From contig NZ_MPIN01000001.1 in assembly GCF_001887355.1 (NCBI RefSeq), positions 721,932-785,931 on the forward strand: a stretch of 64,000 nt of DNA. The letters run 5' to 3'. The position numbers and the translations under genes are program-made. The stretch is from Cystobacter ferrugineus. Lineage in GTDB: Bacteria; Myxococcota; Myxococcia; Myxococcales; Myxococcaceae. Shown piece by piece: positions 799 through 15,225 of this stretch (the stretch's first letter is position 1; each line of letters opens with the position of its first letter). The notes beneath the pieces are model-generated. The model had not been told where the DNA came from and did not search any database. It saw nothing but the letters and a program-made list of their open reading frames with translations.

Positions 799-2112
799 GT
801 GGACGGGGAGAAAAACCGGGGCGGGAGAGCTGGCGGGCCCTCCACACCCCCTGAGAAGCAAACAGGGACGAGGAAGCAACAGGGAGCAAACACCTCGGCC
901 GTGCAGCAGATGCTGACGCGATTGGGACTGACGTTCAAGGAGATAGTGGACCCGCGGGCCAGTCGAGGCAAGAGGCACGGGTTGGGGGCGCTCCTGTCGC
1001 TGCTGGTGGTGGGGATGGCGACGGGAAGAAGAGTGCTGCGACAGGTAGAGGCATTGGGGGAGGACCTGGTGCGCGAAGGGACGGAGCCGAAGGGGTTGAG
1101 GGGAGCGGTGTCGGACACGACGTTGGATAGACTGCTCAGTCAGCTTGGGCCCGAGGGATGGGACGAGGTGTTGCAGCAGTCGGTGCGGACAGCACTCGAG
1201 CAGGGAGTGCTGAGGCAAGACAGGCTGGCGGCGGGAGTGGTGTCGATTGACGGCAAGGCGGGGGAGAGCACGCGAGGACAAGCGCCGTGCGAGCCCTGTC
1301 ACACACTCCGGGATGAGCAAGGGCAGGAGTATTGGTACCCCTTCGCGCTCCGGGCGGCGCTCACCAGCAGCAGGGCGTGCCCGGTGCTCGACCAGATGAT
1401 GCTGGAAGGCAAGCAAGGAGAGGCGACGGCCTTCCCCAAACTGCTTGGGCGAGTGGTGGAGAAGTATGGCGAGCACTTCAAGTACGTGACGGGGGACGCG
1501 GGGCTGACGAGCGCGGCGAACGCGAGGGCGGTGAGAGAGGCGGGCAAGCACTACCTGTTCGCACTCAAGGAGAACTTCAGCCGGTTGCACGACGTGGCGT
1601 GGGTGGCGCTGGCGACGGCGCCGGTGCAGGTGAGAGTGAGAGAGAAGGCACGGGGCGAGTGGGTGGAAAGGGAGTTGAGAGTCACGCCCGTCCCCGAGAC
1701 AGAAGAGTTTCCCGAAGCCCGGCAATGGATATGGGTGCGCAGCACGCGGGAGCGCGAGGGGCGTTTGCCCGAGGTGGAGACGCGACTGTTTCTCACCTCC
1801 ATTCCCAGTGGGGAGTTGTCGGGGGAGCAGATGCTGACAGTAGTGAGAGGGCATTGGGGAATAGAGAACGGGCCGAACTGGACGGCGGACGTGGTGCTGG
1901 AGGAAGACACGGCCTCGGCCAGCCTACGGGGGCAGGCCCCCGTGGTGCTCAGTTGGCTGCGGCTGCTGGCCTACAACCTGTTGGCGTTGGTGCGCACACA
2001 CCTGCCCCCAAAAGACGGCAGGCCCGTGTCCTACGCTCGCACCCAGGAAGTGCTCTACCAAGGCTTGCTGGGCCTGGCGGTGCTCCCGGAGACTCTGGCC
2101 GCACTTGCCTGA
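799..2112 (+). CDS. ISAs1 family DDE transposase
   Basis: A 437-residue transposase. Recognisable family features are the N-terminal DPRASRGKRHGL block, a first catalytic Asp in VVSIDGKAGES (about residue 151), a second in YVTGDAGLTS (about 233) and the Glu in GHWGIENGPNW (about 356), the HWGIEN motif being typical of the ISAs1 group. The GTG at 799 is preceded by TTGGAGAG five bases upstream and is preferred; an internal ATG at 910 would remove part of the N-terminal domain. The gene is full length and has no internal stop, so the element may be functional, although no target-site duplication survives. Transposases of this family cut and paste their element by DDE chemistry. Confidence 0.9.
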   Translation: MDGEKNRGGRAGGPSTPPEKQTGTRKQQGANTSAVQQMLTRLGLTFKEIVDPRASRGKRHGLGALLSLLVVGMATGRRVLRQVEALGEDLVREGTEPKGLRGAVSDTTLDRLLSQLGPEGWDEVLQQSVRTALEQGVLRQDRLAAGVVSIDGKAGESTRGQAPCEPCHTLRDEQGQEYWYPFALRAALTSSRACPVLDQMMLEGKQGEATAFPKLLGRVVEKYGEHFKYVTGDAGLTSAANARAVREAGKHYLFALKENFSRLHDVAWVALATAPVQVRVREKARGEWVERELRVTPVPETEEFPEARQWIWVRSTREREGRLPEVETRLFLTSIPSGELSGEQMLTVVRGHWGIENGPNWTADVVLEEDTASASLRGQAPVVLSWLRLLAYNLLALVRTHLPPKDGRPVSYARTQEVLYQGLLGLAVLPETLAALA

Positions 2113-9432: not shown

Positions 9433-10485
9433 CTACGCGCGCTCGAGGCTCGCGATGTCGATGACGAAGCGGTAGCGCACGTCGCCCTTCATCATGCGCT
9501 CGTAGGCCTCGTTGATCTTCTGGATGGGGATGATCTCGATGTCCGACACGATGTTGTGCTTCGCGCAGTAGTCGAGCATCTCCTGCGTCTCGGCGATGCC
9601 GCCGATCATCGACCCGGCCAGGCGCTTGTTCCCGCCGATGAGCGAGAACGCGTGCACGGGCACCGCCTCCGGCGGTACGCCGACCACCACCAGGGTGCCC
9701 TGGGGGCGCAGCATGCCCAGGTACTGGTTGTAGTCATGCGGGGCGGAGATGGTGTCGATGATGAGGTCGAAGCGGCCCGACAGCTTCTTGAAGGTGTCCG
9801 CGTCCTTGGTGACCTCGAAGCCCTGGGCGCCCAGGCGGCGCGCGTCGGCCTCCTTGGTGCGGGACGTGCTGAGCACCGTCACCTCCGCGCCCATGGACGC
9901 GGCGAGCTTCACGGCCATGTGGCCCAGCCCGCCCAGGCCCACCACGCCCACGCGGTCGCCCTTCTTGCAGTTCCACTGGCGCAGCGGCGAGTACGTGGTG
10001 ATGCCGGCGCACAGCAGCGGCGCGGCGGCGGCGGGATCGAGCCCTTCGGGCACCTTCAGCGCGAAGTGCTCGGTGACGACGATGCGGGACGCGTAGCCGC
10101 CGTAGGTCGGCGTCTTCCGGTCCATGTACGTGCTGTTGTAGGTGCCGGCCATCCCCTTCGCGCAGAACTGCTCCAGGTCGCGGCGGCACGTCTGGCAGTC
10201 GCGGCACGAGTCCACCATGCAGCCGACGCCCGCCATGTCGCCCACCTTCAACTTCGTGACGTGCTGGCCCACCTGCTTGACGCGGCCGACGATCTCGTGG
10301 CCCGGCACCATGGGGAAGATGGCGCCGCCCCACTCGTCACGGGCCTGGTGGATGTCGGAGTGGCAGACCCCGCAGTAGAGGATGTCGATGAGCACGTCAT
10401 GGGGGCCGACCTCGCGCTGCTCGAACGAGAAGGGCGCCAGCGGCTTTCCAGCGGCGGGGGCGGCATAGGCAGGAGTCTTCGGCAT
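9433..10485 (-). CDS. NADP-dependent zinc alcohol dehydrogenase (cinnamyl/aldehyde reductase type)
   Basis: A 350-residue medium-chain dehydrogenase. Catalytic zinc ligands lie in YCGVCHSD and PGHEIVG; the structural zinc loop has four cysteines (CMVDSCRDCQTCRRDLEQFC). The dinucleotide fold carries GVVGLGGLGHMAVK and then VLSTSRTK, where Ser/Arg instead of Asp at the end of the second strand points to NADP(H), as in YahK/CAD-type enzymes that reduce a broad set of aldehydes. The ATG at 10485 has GGAG about nine bases upstream and starts the conserved protein; the frame extends further but without support. A LysR regulator gene is divergent, with a 10-bp-arm palindrome between the two. Confidence 0.9.
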   Translation of the reverse strand: MPKTPAYAAPAAGKPLAPFSFEQREVGPHDVLIDILYCGVCHSDIHQARDEWGGAIFPMVPGHEIVGRVKQVGQHVTKLKVGDMAGVGCMVDSCRDCQTCRRDLEQFCAKGMAGTYNSTYMDRKTPTYGGYASRIVVTEHFALKVPEGLDPAAAAPLLCAGITTYSPLRQWNCKKGDRVGVVGLGGLGHMAVKLAASMGAEVTVLSTSRTKEADARRLGAQGFEVTKDADTFKKLSGRFDLIIDTISAPHDYNQYLGMLRPQGTLVVVGVPPEAVPVHAFSLIGGNKRLAGSMIGGIAETQEMLDYCAKHNIVSDIEIIPIQKINEAYERMMKGDVRYRFVIDIASLERA

Positions 10486-11828: not shown

Positions 11829-13295
11829 TCAAGAGGCGGAAGGAGAGGAGCGCCTCAGCCTGCTGATAACGGCATCCATGCGCCGTGCGGCCTCGTCGCG
11901 CTGCTGCTCGGCATCCGCGAGCGCGGCAAGCTGCTCGTCCAAATCAAGGTGCTCGCGTTCGTCCTCGCGCTTCACATATCGCTCGACGGTCAGGTTCCAG
12001 TTGAGCTTGGCTATCTCATCGAGGTGAACCGCACGCACCTGGCGCTCGTCACTTCCAAAGCCCTGGAACGCCTTAACGATGGTGCCGATGTTCTCTTGTG
12101 ACAGTGCGCGCCGTCTGCCCTTCTTCACGCCGGCATCGGAAGCATCGATGAACAAGACGCGCTTGTGCCGGCCGGCGGGCTTGCCCTTCCTCAGGACCAG
12201 CACGACAGGCGCGATGGAGACGTCGTAGAGCAGGTTTCCAGGCAGACCGATGATTGCTTCGAACCGATCCTCTTCCAGCAGCTTGCGGCGGATGTCCTCT
12301 TCGACGCCACCGCGGAAGAGCACTCCGCGCGGCAGGAGGAGCGCCGCCCTTCCCCCTTCCGCGAGGCCAGCGAGGCAGTGCTGCACGAATGCGTAATTCG
12401 CGTTGTGCGCGGGCGGTACCGGATTGAACCGGCCAAAGGCATCCTCCCCGGCCCGCTCGGCGCCCCAGCTATCAAGGTTCCACGGCGGATCCGCCAGAAT
12501 CCCGTCGTACTCGTTCAATCGTCCCTGCTCCGTCATCAGGGGTGACCAGAGTGCGTTGCCAAGCTCAATGCGCGCATCGACGATGCCGTGCAACAGGAGG
12601 TTCATCCGGCACAGGGCCCACAGCTCTGCGTTCTTCTCCTGTCCGTGCAGCACGAGCGAGGCCGCCGCGTGGGGCAAGCTCATCGCGGACCGGGACGCGA
12701 CCTGGCGCGCACACTCCACGAGGAATCCACCCACGCCGCAGACCGGGTCATAGAGGCGCATGCCAGCTCGCAGTTCCAGGAGTTCCGCCAGGAGGAGGGC
12801 CACGGATGGCGGCGTGTAGAATTCGCCCCCCGTGCGCCCGCTCGTCTCTGCCAGCCGGAGGAGGAAGCCGTCAGAGATCTCGCCCAGCCTCCCATCCGAT
12901 AACAGCGCTCCACTCAGACGAGGAAGCTCCGAGAGCGTCTGAATCAGGTCCGCCAACAGCGGGTCGCCCAACCTGATGGAACTGAAATCCGCCTGCGTCA
13001 GGAGTCCCCTGAGCAATGGATTCGCCGATTCCAATACTGCGCAGGCATCGTTGACGCGCTCTCCCAGCCCAGAAGAGGCGTGACTTCGCAGCGAGGACCA
13101 GCGGGCCAAGGTGGACACCACGAACCGAGGCACGCCGGAGGTGGGAGGCCCGTCCGTCACGTCGCTCAGGAACTTCAGCACCAGCAGGCGGAAGACGTAG
13201 CCTGCCGCCGAGTCACGCGTAACCGCCCCATTCGAATGGAGGACATCCGTGGCCTTCCACAACAACCCCACCAACTCAGTCATTGCCGGGTTCAT
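11829..13295 (-). CDS. hsdM: type I restriction-modification DNA methyltransferase subunit
   Basis: A 488-residue N6-adenine methyltransferase of the HsdM family. The N-terminal helical domain (NPAMTELVGLLWKATDVLHS) is followed by GEFYTPPSVALLLAELL, the AdoMet motif I DPVCGVGGFL (residues 183-192) and catalytic motif IV DPPW (269-272), where most HsdM proteins have NPPF or NPPY. GGGAGGAACT before the ATG at 13295 marks the start; it overlaps the 3' end of hsdS by 20 bases, so translation is coupled. The C-terminus has a predicted helical dimerisation/specificity-binding segment (DEREHLDLDEQLAALADAEQ). No restriction subunit gene follows. It should methylate adenine in a sequence chosen by the adjacent HsdS. 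Confidence 0.9.
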   Translation of the reverse strand: MNPAMTELVGLLWKATDVLHSNGAVTRDSAAGYVFRLLVLKFLSDVTDGPPTSGVPRFVVSTLARWSSLRSHASSGLGERVNDACAVLESANPLLRGLLTQADFSSIRLGDPLLADLIQTLSELPRLSGALLSDGRLGEISDGFLLRLAETSGRTGGEFYTPPSVALLLAELLELRAGMRLYDPVCGVGGFLVECARQVASRSAMSLPHAAASLVLHGQEKNAELWALCRMNLLLHGIVDARIELGNALWSPLMTEQGRLNEYDGILADPPWNLDSWGAERAGEDAFGRFNPVPPAHNANYAFVQHCLAGLAEGGRAALLLPRGVLFRGGVEEDIRRKLLEEDRFEAIIGLPGNLLYDVSIAPVVLVLRKGKPAGRHKRVLFIDASDAGVKKGRRRALSQENIGTIVKAFQGFGSDERQVRAVHLDEIAKLNWNLTVERYVKREDEREHLDLDEQLAALADAEQQRDEAARRMDAVISRLRRSSPSAS

Positions 13296-13923
13296 GTGGC
13301 AGTTCCTCCCTTCCGGGTGGCAGCAGGATTTCCGAGACCATTCCATCCACCAACGCGCGTCGCAGGTCCGCGGCCCGGAGCGCGGCCTGATGGTGCGCCT
13401 GCTCCGCCTCGATGAGTTCCGCGAGCTCTCGTTGCAGCTCCCGAGGCGGCAGGGGAACGGGCAGGTCCTCCAGGTCCTTGACGGTGAGTTGGACGAGTCC
13501 CGATGAGGACCGGGCGCGAAGCTTCAATCGACCCTGCCACGCGGCGCTCCGGAACAAGGCCAGGAGCACTGCGGGCAGGAGCTTCTCCCCAGGCCGTACC
13601 ACGATGAGATTGGAGCTGACGAGAAGCGAGGCCGCGCTCTCCGGAACGCGCGCCACCTTCTGGAGGGTGCCCCGGCAGGAGACGAGCAGGTCATCCACCT
13701 GGATGCGAAACCGCTCCAGCGACCCCGGGCGCAGCCCTACCGCGACCAACTCCTCGCGAGGAGCGACTCGGCCCGCCTCGATGTCTCCCACGCTGAGCAC
13801 CGGCTCGTGGATGGCCTTCTCACCTTCCTTCGCCTGATGTCGGGACACCGGCAGCCCGACGAAGAGCGTCTCCACCACGGAGCGCAGTGGCAGGACCGGC
13901 CATCGTGTTTCAGAGCGGCTCAT
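13276..13923 (-). CDS. hsdS: half-length type I specificity subunit (single target-recognition domain)
   Basis: A 215-residue protein, about half the length of ordinary HsdS (400 or more). It has one target-recognition domain (WPVLPLRSVVETLFVGLPVS, HEPVLSVGDIEAGRV, FRIQVDDLLVSCRGTLQKVA, SSNLIVVRPG), ending in the DLEDLPVPLPPRELQRELAE helix-entry motif typical of HsdS conserved regions, and one long helix (LAELIEAEQAHHQAALRAAD). Known single-TRD subunits dimerise and recognise palindromic bipartite sites. A perfect GGGAGG seven bases before the ATG at 13923 fixes the start. No second half lies nearby, and the reading frame is intact, so I take the short form as genuine rather than truncated. 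Confidence 0.8.
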   Translation of the reverse strand: MSRSETRWPVLPLRSVVETLFVGLPVSRHQAKEGEKAIHEPVLSVGDIEAGRVAPREELVAVGLRPGSLERFRIQVDDLLVSCRGTLQKVARVPESAASLLVSSNLIVVRPGEKLLPAVLLALFRSAAWQGRLKLRARSSSGLVQLTVKDLEDLPVPLPPRELQRELAELIEAEQAHHQAALRAADLRRALVDGMVSEILLPPGREELPHEPGND

Positions 13924-13959
13924 TGGTCCTCCCGTGGCCGCCACATGTGCGCGCGGCCC

Positions 13960-14646
13960 TCATCGAACGTCCACCTCGAACGCCGTCGAGCCCCTGGCAT
14001 GAACCTCGTTGAAGGTGTGCGCATCCGGAAGGATGCGGCTCAACTCCGGTTCGAACCAGCCGATAGTCTCTCCCAGCTCCGCATACCGCTGGGGGAGGTC
14101 CGGCCAGCGCCAGATGGGCTCGTGGTGGAAGACCCGGTTGCGAAGCTTGCGAACCTGATGCATGCGATCCGCCACGCGCTGGCGCGTCCGCTCCCGCCGG
14201 GGCATGTGGGGGAAGACGGGCTTCAGCAGCCAGGGCCAGATGACCTGCTCGTAGGAGCGGCTCAGCAGGCTGGTCCAGAAACCAAAGCTGAGTTCGGCCA
14301 CCAGACGGCCGGGCTCCAGCGGCATGCCGCGATTTCCCAGCTCCGTCTTCGCGGCCGCGATCGCCCTCTGCTCGCGTGACGACAACCACGCAGGGGTGAG
14401 GTCGTACCAGGTAGGCGTTCCCTTGGATGCCGTGAGCGCCTCGTGGAGGCTGTTGCGAAAGGCCACCTCCAGATAGCCCAGCGGCCCGCACAGCGACATG
14501 CTCAGCGCCACGTTCCACCGGTAGCGCCCGATGAGGACGCGGGGCGTGTCGCTCGGGCTCAAGCGATAAGCCTCCAGTCGAGGGGGCGACAAGACCCTCG
14601 TCAGGGCCACGGCAGAAATGGATTGCACACCCGGAGGGTTCGACAT
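13960..14646 (-). CDS. Abi_2-like protein with HEPN motif (putative abortive-infection RNase)
   Basis: A 228-residue helical protein resembling the Abi_2 (AbiD/AbiF) group: RYRWNVALSMSLCGPLGYLE with FRNSLHEAL near the N-terminus, then WYD, and a late motif KLRNRVFHHEPIW. R169-N-R-V-F-H174 fits the R-X4-H catalytic motif of HEPN ribonucleases. Such proteins in phage-defence loci degrade RNA and stop cell growth when triggered. It is the first gene of an operon with hsdS (36 bases downstream) and hsdM, and takes the place where a restriction subunit would be expected. The upstream RBS is weak. That it senses failure or inhibition of the methyltransferase, as PrrC does with EcoprrI, is inference. 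Confidence 0.75.
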   Translation of the reverse strand: MSNPPGVQSISAVALTRVLSPPRLEAYRLSPSDTPRVLIGRYRWNVALSMSLCGPLGYLEVAFRNSLHEALTASKGTPTWYDLTPAWLSSREQRAIAAAKTELGNRGMPLEPGRLVAELSFGFWTSLLSRSYEQVIWPWLLKPVFPHMPRRERTRQRVADRMHQVRKLRNRVFHHEPIWRWPDLPQRYAELGETIGWFEPELSRILPDAHTFNEVHARGSTAFEVDVR

Positions 14647-15225
14647 AAGTTCGATGCACCGTCCCCGGGTCGTCCTCTCCCAGTGCTCATGCGCTGGTGA
14701 TGACCCCGGGGTTTTTTGTTTCCGACATTCGTCGCCCCCCAGACATCAGGAAGGCTGGAAGCTCAGCTGCTCCAACCCGTTGGCATGTGCCAAGCTCCGC
14801 CACCGCGCCCCCATTCGGGGGTACCCGGCGGGTGCCTAATCCGCGACGAACAACAACGCGGACCACAGTAGGAACTTGGGCGCTCTCCGTCAATGCCTAA
14901 TGCGCGGAGAACGCTCCTGCTTGGTGTGTCAATGTGCGCAAAAGTACGACCTGGGGGAGGACTCCGGGTTACCGCGCCGTGTAGCCCCCGTTGATGACGA
15001 GCTCAGCGCCCGTGACGAAGCGCGACGCGACCGATAACTCCCTGCCGCTCTCCTCAAGCAAGGGAGGCCTGGGCAGCAGTGTGCCCAAGGGGCTGCACCG
15101 CCTCTCCACCAACTCCGTGGGTCCGGGTCGGCAAGAGCCGCGCAGTCCTCGGCATAAGTGGGCTTGCCCCGGTTACGTGGGGCAGGCTTACGCCGCACCT
15201 GCTCTGGCCACGACGCATCGAGGCC
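14647..15225. other. 579-bp gene-poor stretch with relics
   Basis: No intact gene is supported. The segment holds the tail of a dehydrogenase gene (14969-15060, separate entry), a small hairpin CCCCC-ATTC-GGGGG at 14808-14821 and two similar motifs TGCCTAATCCGCG and TGCCTAATGCGCG about 70 bases apart (14834-14910). A minus-strand frame at 14929-15198 is out of frame with the dehydrogenase relic and looks like decay. It marks the upstream edge of the HsdM/HsdS/Abi unit. Confidence 0.5.
14969..15060 (-). pseudogene. C-terminal remnant of a short-chain dehydrogenase
   Basis: Read on the minus strand, the last 30 codons before a TAA are LEESGRELSVASRFVTGAEL then VINGGYTAR. 'SRFVTGAELVINGGYTA' is the standard C-terminal end of classical SDR enzymes (usually '(Y/F)VTGxxLxVDGGxxx'). 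Upstream of it no SDR residues can be read in any frame, so only the tail survives. It sits between the defence-like operon and the outer-membrane protein gene. Confidence 0.6.

Follow-up and report, generated by a model that had tools for sequence, protein, structure and literature searches.

What does a HEPN protein do beside a half-HsdS/HsdM methyltransferase that has no HsdR, and what holds it in check? The question arises from a locus of Cystobacter ferrugineus, where abi, an hsdS gene with a single TRD and hsdM are closely packed on the minus strand (positions 11829–14646 of the window, by which we mean the whole stretch of 64,000 nucleotides that was analysed; Table 1). An earlier note on this DNA had described operon-like packing with a gap of 36 bases between abi and hsdS and an overlap of 20 bases between hsdS and hsdM, and both values are exact. 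It interpreted the genes as a guard-type system, in which the methyltransferase module marks or senses DNA and the HEPN RNase responds. An RNA hairpin upstream of abi and a pair of repeats flanking the promoter were missed.

Table 1. Features of the cassette, in window coordinates.
Feature	Position	Strand	Basis
Whole cassette (promoter, RNA element, abi, hsdS, hsdM)	11829–14955	–	match to Archangium violaceum L010
HsdM, N6-adenine DNA methyltransferase subunit (motifs DPVCGVGGF and DPPW)	11829–13295	–	profile matches, motifs
Half HsdS (one TRD, one long C-terminal helix)	13276–13923	–	profile matches; low-confidence model
Abi, predicted AbiF-fold HEPN RNase toxin (R169-X4-H174)	13960–14646	–	motif, PADLOC, predicted structure
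Conserved structured RNA element, candidate RNA antitoxin	14662–14713	–	folding, covariance model, covariation
Direct repeat / operator-like site 2, GTTCGTCGCGGATTAGGC	14834–14851	–	motif search of genomes
–10-like TACTGT	14865–14870	–	weak consensus match
–35-like TTGACG	14888–14893	–	inferred; below generic-scan threshold
Direct repeat / operator-like site 1, GTTCTCCGCGCATTAGGC	14895–14912	–	motif search of genomes

Together with their promoter, the three genes form a discrete unit of about 3.1 kb. Positions 11849–14955 are 96.3% identical to a locus of Archangium violaceum (L010; NZ_JPMI01000034.1), and the flanks of the two loci are unrelated. This near-identical copy in unrelated surroundings points to horizontal movement, apparently as an exact, transferable three-gene unit. 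Judging from the sequence, abi, hsdS and hsdM probably form one operon with a shared promoter. Elsewhere in the window (799–2112), an ORF of 437 aa looks by eye like an IS transposase of ISAs1 type.

A survey of 145 genomes of the order (Myxococcales) revealed full-length close Abi homologues in four species, which represent two genera. Each of these four intact loci encodes Abi, HsdS and HsdM in the same order and without hsdR, with identities to the window of 96, 73 and 63% for Abi, 98, 73 and 60% for HsdS, and 96, 62 and 50% for HsdM. The three genes are under purifying selection (dN/dS 0.11–0.36). Recurrence of the gene order in four species and selection on every gene argue that the triad is not a product of chance. 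A third genus carries two Abi remnants without HsdMS, one with an internal deletion (L013) and one a fragment (L014). A further species shows a weak Abi-like match on the minus strand (L015 in G048, ~9470–9752; 32% over 87 aa, E = 6e-4).

A plasmid search with a joined Abi, HsdS and HsdM query gave none with all three among the matches listed. The four known triads all belong to one bacterial family. The lack of linkage between Abi and HsdMS, which the earlier note named as evidence against its idea, has a mixed outcome: it applies to the distant plasmid and viral relatives examined, which are solo Abi genes, but not to the intact close homologues. No HsdS relatives were found in viral contigs.

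The HsdM protein contains an N6_Mtase domain (E = 1.3e-80) and an HsdM_N domain, and methyltransferase motifs I (D-x-x-C-G-x-G-G) and IV ([AS]DPP[WF]) are kept in its homologues; an alternative start of the gene is an upstream ATG at 13346. HsdS is 215 aa long with one Methylase_S domain, in agreement with the single TRD noted before. No claims rest on its fold model, which is of low confidence (pLDDT 61.8). The absence of HsdR from the flanks, also noted before, extends genome-wide: the sole HSDR_N match is an orphan protein of ~410–436 aa on another contig (C9, L016:9011–10321), which contains this domain only and has no HsdM or HsdS homologues in the ~20 kb around it. The idea of the earlier note thus withstands its chief refuting condition, an hsdR gene that would complete the locus. 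Thus, although the cassette shares an HsdM with intact motifs with type I restriction-modification (R-M) systems, it lacks their two-TRD HsdS and their HsdR.

A half-HsdS and HsdM are expected to assemble as M2S2 and to recognise a symmetric bipartite (palindromic) target. Engineered half-HsdS proteins do dimerise into active methyltransferases with palindromic targets (PMC6158711). The same combination of HsdM and single-TRD HsdS, with the same expected stoichiometry and kind of target, is found in the ‘type one and a half’ enzymes, EcoR124I-NT and the engineered CC398-1 half-S. Whereas half-HsdS methyltransferases pair with a type IIP endonuclease or HsdR, the partner in the cassette is the predicted HEPN toxin. 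AhdI-like type IIP R-M systems also combine HsdM with a half-HsdS, but the separate endonuclease of those systems has no counterpart among the three genes of the cassette.

In type I systems it is usually HsdS that varies. The HsdS of the cassette, in contrast, shows about the same conservation as Abi and more than HsdM, which disfavours ordinary type I diversification and suggests that a fixed DNA target matters. This HsdS clade is confined to the four triad genomes. Another myxobacterial half-HsdS/HsdM pair (L030:225–2790) has no visible HsdR in the sequence examined around it, and a small ORF ahead of it gives a sub-threshold GIY-YIG match (18.4 bits). As this case hints, half-S modules may swap effectors.

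The Abi protein has 228 aa and an intact HEPN motif reading R169-N-R-V-F-H174, as the R-X4-H assignment of the earlier note required. R169, N170 and H174 are invariant in 20 relatives. Calling the protein Abi_2-like held only in part: the Pfam Abi_2 score stays below the gathering cut-off (16.3 versus 25.6 bits), whereas the PADLOC model of PD-T4-5 matches with E = 1.3e-15. PD-T4-5, encoded by a single gene without hsdMS on an E. coli plasmid, is of the same protein family, a distant AbiF/D relative that confers Abi-type defence (PMC9519451). An AlphaFold model (pLDDT 90.9) yielded one credible match in the PDB, the PbAbiF dimer with its ncRNA (8vz6; Foldseek probability 1.00, TMq 0.58), at an E-value of only 8.9e-3, which counts against an AbiF-type reading. 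On the strength of this model, Abi is predicted to belong to the AbiF fold class, and by analogy it is probably a toxic RNase. Plasmid-borne Abi proteins, with around 1,000 matching plasmid records, are a large and mostly unexplained group.

Directly upstream of the abi start codon, ~16 nt away, lies a hairpin (folding z = –2.76). Its outer stem pairs CCCCGGG with CCCGGGG, has a 3′ bulge and is followed by a GUC/GAC stem, an internal loop (CAU..GAGAGG) and an inner CCAG/CUGG stem. At the more remote loci the hairpin is more conserved than the abi coding sequence, with identities of 89% versus 73% in L011 and 83% versus 60% in L013, and L013 retains it although HsdMS is missing there. Both observations indicate that the hairpin belongs to Abi. 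Hairpins of like plan occupy the same position at solo Abi genes that plasmids of other phyla carry.

A covariance model built from five sequences was searched over 50 loci (500 kb), and its top 15 matches all lay directly upstream of Abi genes. It found Pseudomonas, Aeromonas, Bosea and Micromonospora loci on which it had not been trained, the Pseudomonas and Aeromonas plasmids with E = 8e-7. A second model added correctly placed but weak matches in Rhizobium, Pseudonocardia and Agrobacterium (E 0.1–0.4). Across the 145 genomes of the order, the RNA model gave five strong copies, one per Abi locus; weak matches (L126–L130) lay inside unrelated coding sequence and were dismissed as chance. Among 16 distinct sequences, 94% of cells were paired and 8 of the 14 base pairs had changed on both sides, in an alignment that was fitted to the model structure and so favours it. 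None of 500 shuffles reached the observed value, and sliding the partners abolished the signal. More independent evidence for the hairpin comes from the loci outside the training set to which the model extends. A generic hairpin descriptor (20 shuffles each) performed less well than the covariance model, being clear in some relatives and not in others.

The hairpin matches no family in Rfam 15, and none scores above chance at the locus. This includes RF03085, the abiF motif, which is absent here, a point against the antitoxin reading, and gives only chance-level matches elsewhere in the genome. The hairpin family was also seen ahead of PD-T4-5-type Abi genes in viral contigs and in members of the Actinomycetota, Alpha- and Gammaproteobacteria (L046–L061, L065, L071–L073). 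Since Rfam 15 lacks it, it may qualify as a new family there. A helix-turn-helix gene recurs directly upstream of the RNA-Abi unit on three plasmids of Hyphomicrobiales (L051:3286–3780, L052:3326–3847, L059:1906–2388).

AbiF systems inhibit their HEPN RNase by means of a cis-encoded RNA that binds to it (PMC12373285; review PMC12737573); AbiF_Cd is toxic and is neutralised by its upstream RNA (PMC12373285). AbiF/AbiFr (PbAbiF, 8VZ6) and AbiF_Cd/RCd22 share with the cassette the AbiF fold, the HEPN RX4H motif and a structured RNA directly upstream, but differ in that the Abi studied here is sub-threshold for Abi_2, its RNA is not RF03085, and hsdS-hsdM follows. By this analogy, the hairpin RNA is likely to be a direct brake on the RNase, and a likelier one than HsdMS alone, since the fold class coincides with a co-varying upstream hairpin common to solo relatives without HsdMS.

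The promoter region contains two direct repeats. The repeat motif GTTCKYCRNNNATTAGGC has two exact matches in the 12-Mb genome, both at this promoter, and each of the four triad genomes contains exactly two copies and none elsewhere. Among genomes that lack the triad, two contain a single chance-level copy each, at another site. In all four loci a TTGAC element stands 19 nt from the start of repeat 1 and is followed by a spacer of 17 nt; a generic scan of the window returned no scored promoter for TTGACG/TACTGT. The repeats are absent upstream of L013, and such promoter-flanking repeats were seen only where HsdMS is present. Linkage of HsdMS to the system is thus indicated by the four of four intact close Abi loci, the triad-only HsdS clade and the two promoter repeats per triad genome. 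HsdMS would be the obvious candidate to bind the repeats, since nothing else in the cassette looks like a sequence-specific DNA-binding protein. Against such binding, the promoters were found to share no palindromic half-site and no palindromic bipartite site of the kind that a half-HsdS dimer would need. Type I-like genes, an embedded toxin-antitoxin pair and promoter direct repeats are also combined in the RptR-controlled type I R-M/DarTG island (PMC12255303), from which the cassette differs in lacking an RptR gene, TAGCTA repeats and hsdR. Nor does the cassette qualify as MADS, which would require mad2 and mad5 equivalogs and further mad genes: the NCBIfam scores lie far below the cut-offs (MAD2, 50 versus 720 bits; MAD5, 31 versus 400 bits), and the cassette has three genes only.

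Taken together, we hypothesise that we are dealing with a self-contained defence cassette that moves horizontally and in which an AbiF-type toxin-antitoxin module is joined to a half-HsdS/HsdM module, a reading to which we assign a probability of roughly 45%. In the first module, the 5′ leader hairpin RNA would be released, bind the Abi HEPN dimer and hold the RNase off. Infection would upset transcription or RNA stability and so free Abi, whereupon RNA would be cleaved and the cell would stop; such release through a lost RNA supply would parallel type III toxin-antitoxin systems. In the second module, the half-HsdS/HsdM adenine methyltransferase of the same apparent operon would replace a complete R-M system. 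It probably couples the toxin to methylation status or methyltransferase integrity, and may do so by controlling the operon promoter through the dedicated repeats or by contacting Abi. A more far-reaching version, which we regard as rather unlikely as a whole, is a composite immunity system of a new kind: a HEPN RNase under the control of an RNA antitoxin would have taken the place of the nuclease of a type I-like M2S2 methyltransferase, which would set the threshold via the promoter operator. The RNA would come from an undescribed antitoxin family found with PD-T4-5-type Abi proteins in several phyla.

The alternative with the greatest claim to attention, unlikely as we consider it, holds that two independent modules share a mobile cassette and a promoter but no mechanism. 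A complete RNA-toxin pair would then serve addiction or abortive infection, and the methyltransferase, an orphan, would shield the incoming element from restriction or alter host methylation. Distant Abi relatives with the same RNA do exist without HsdMS on plasmids and viral contigs, and L013, which lacks it, still has the RNA and a damaged Abi. Such independence fits poorly with the strict co-occurrence and order in all four intact loci, with an HsdS clade exclusive to triads and with operator repeats found only alongside HsdMS. The opposite view, in which HsdMS itself is the partner that keeps the HEPN RNase bound and silent until the methyltransferase is attacked or meets unmodified DNA, the RNA being no antitoxin, comes closest to the guard of the earlier note. 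It can draw on the conserved triad, on general HEPN/R-M linkage (PMC3710099) and on PrrC-EcoprrI, where a HEPN anticodon nuclease sits in a type Ic R-M locus. PrrC, however, carries an ABC-ATPase domain and is accompanied by a complete hsdMSR, whereas the cassette encodes a HEPN-only Abi, no HsdR and an RNA element. Given that the AbiF fold has a known RNA inhibitor and that the conserved RNA also occurs in relatives without HsdMS, a restraining role of the methyltransferase alone is improbable. What survives of the guard idea is a conserved, transferable unit with intact motifs and without HsdR.

It is similarly doubtful that the hairpin is a leader control element (an attenuator, a translational switch or an antisense terminator) rather than an antitoxin that binds Abi. 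A place ~16 nt ahead of the start codon is also compatible with translational control, and RCd22 additionally acts in cis to reduce abiF expression (PMC12373285). On the plus strand, positions 14662–14717 read as a hairpin followed by TTTTTT that resembles an intrinsic terminator, at which antisense transcription starting within abi could stop. The A-run that gives this T tail is missing in some relatives, whereas the internal loop (CAU/AGAGG) and the position of the hairpin are kept across phyla, as befits a protein-bound RNA. A decayed type I system that lost hsdR beside an unrelated abi gene is very improbable. Half-HsdS and HsdM in the order S-M do occur with hsdR on plasmids of Nostoc, Acetobacter and Komagataeibacter, but a remnant would hardly lack hsdR in four of four loci, retain its motifs intact, show purifying selection on every gene and be transferred as an exact three-gene unit. 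Four intact triads at unrelated sites largely refute it.

The association of HEPN proteins with R-M systems is not new as such: in 2013, Abi2/AbiF/AbiD HEPN proteins were already reported to be linked to R-M operons (PMC3710099). To the extent that our tools show, the novel features are the mobile half-HsdS unit without HsdR, the RNA with covariation across phyla and the dedicated repeats; this claim is limited by structural work on AbiF RNAs (Zilberzwige-Tal et al., cited in PMC12373285), which may already cover related RNAs.

RNA-neutralised suicide RNases of this kind belong to the lineage that gave rise to Cas13. If our preferred reading of a toxin-antitoxin module joined to a half-HsdS/HsdM module is true, such an RNase and DNA methylation sensing would be united in one 3-kb unit. 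The large and mostly unexplained plasmid-borne Abi group would gain a candidate antitoxin RNA, which would explain how PD-T4-5-like toxins are silenced.
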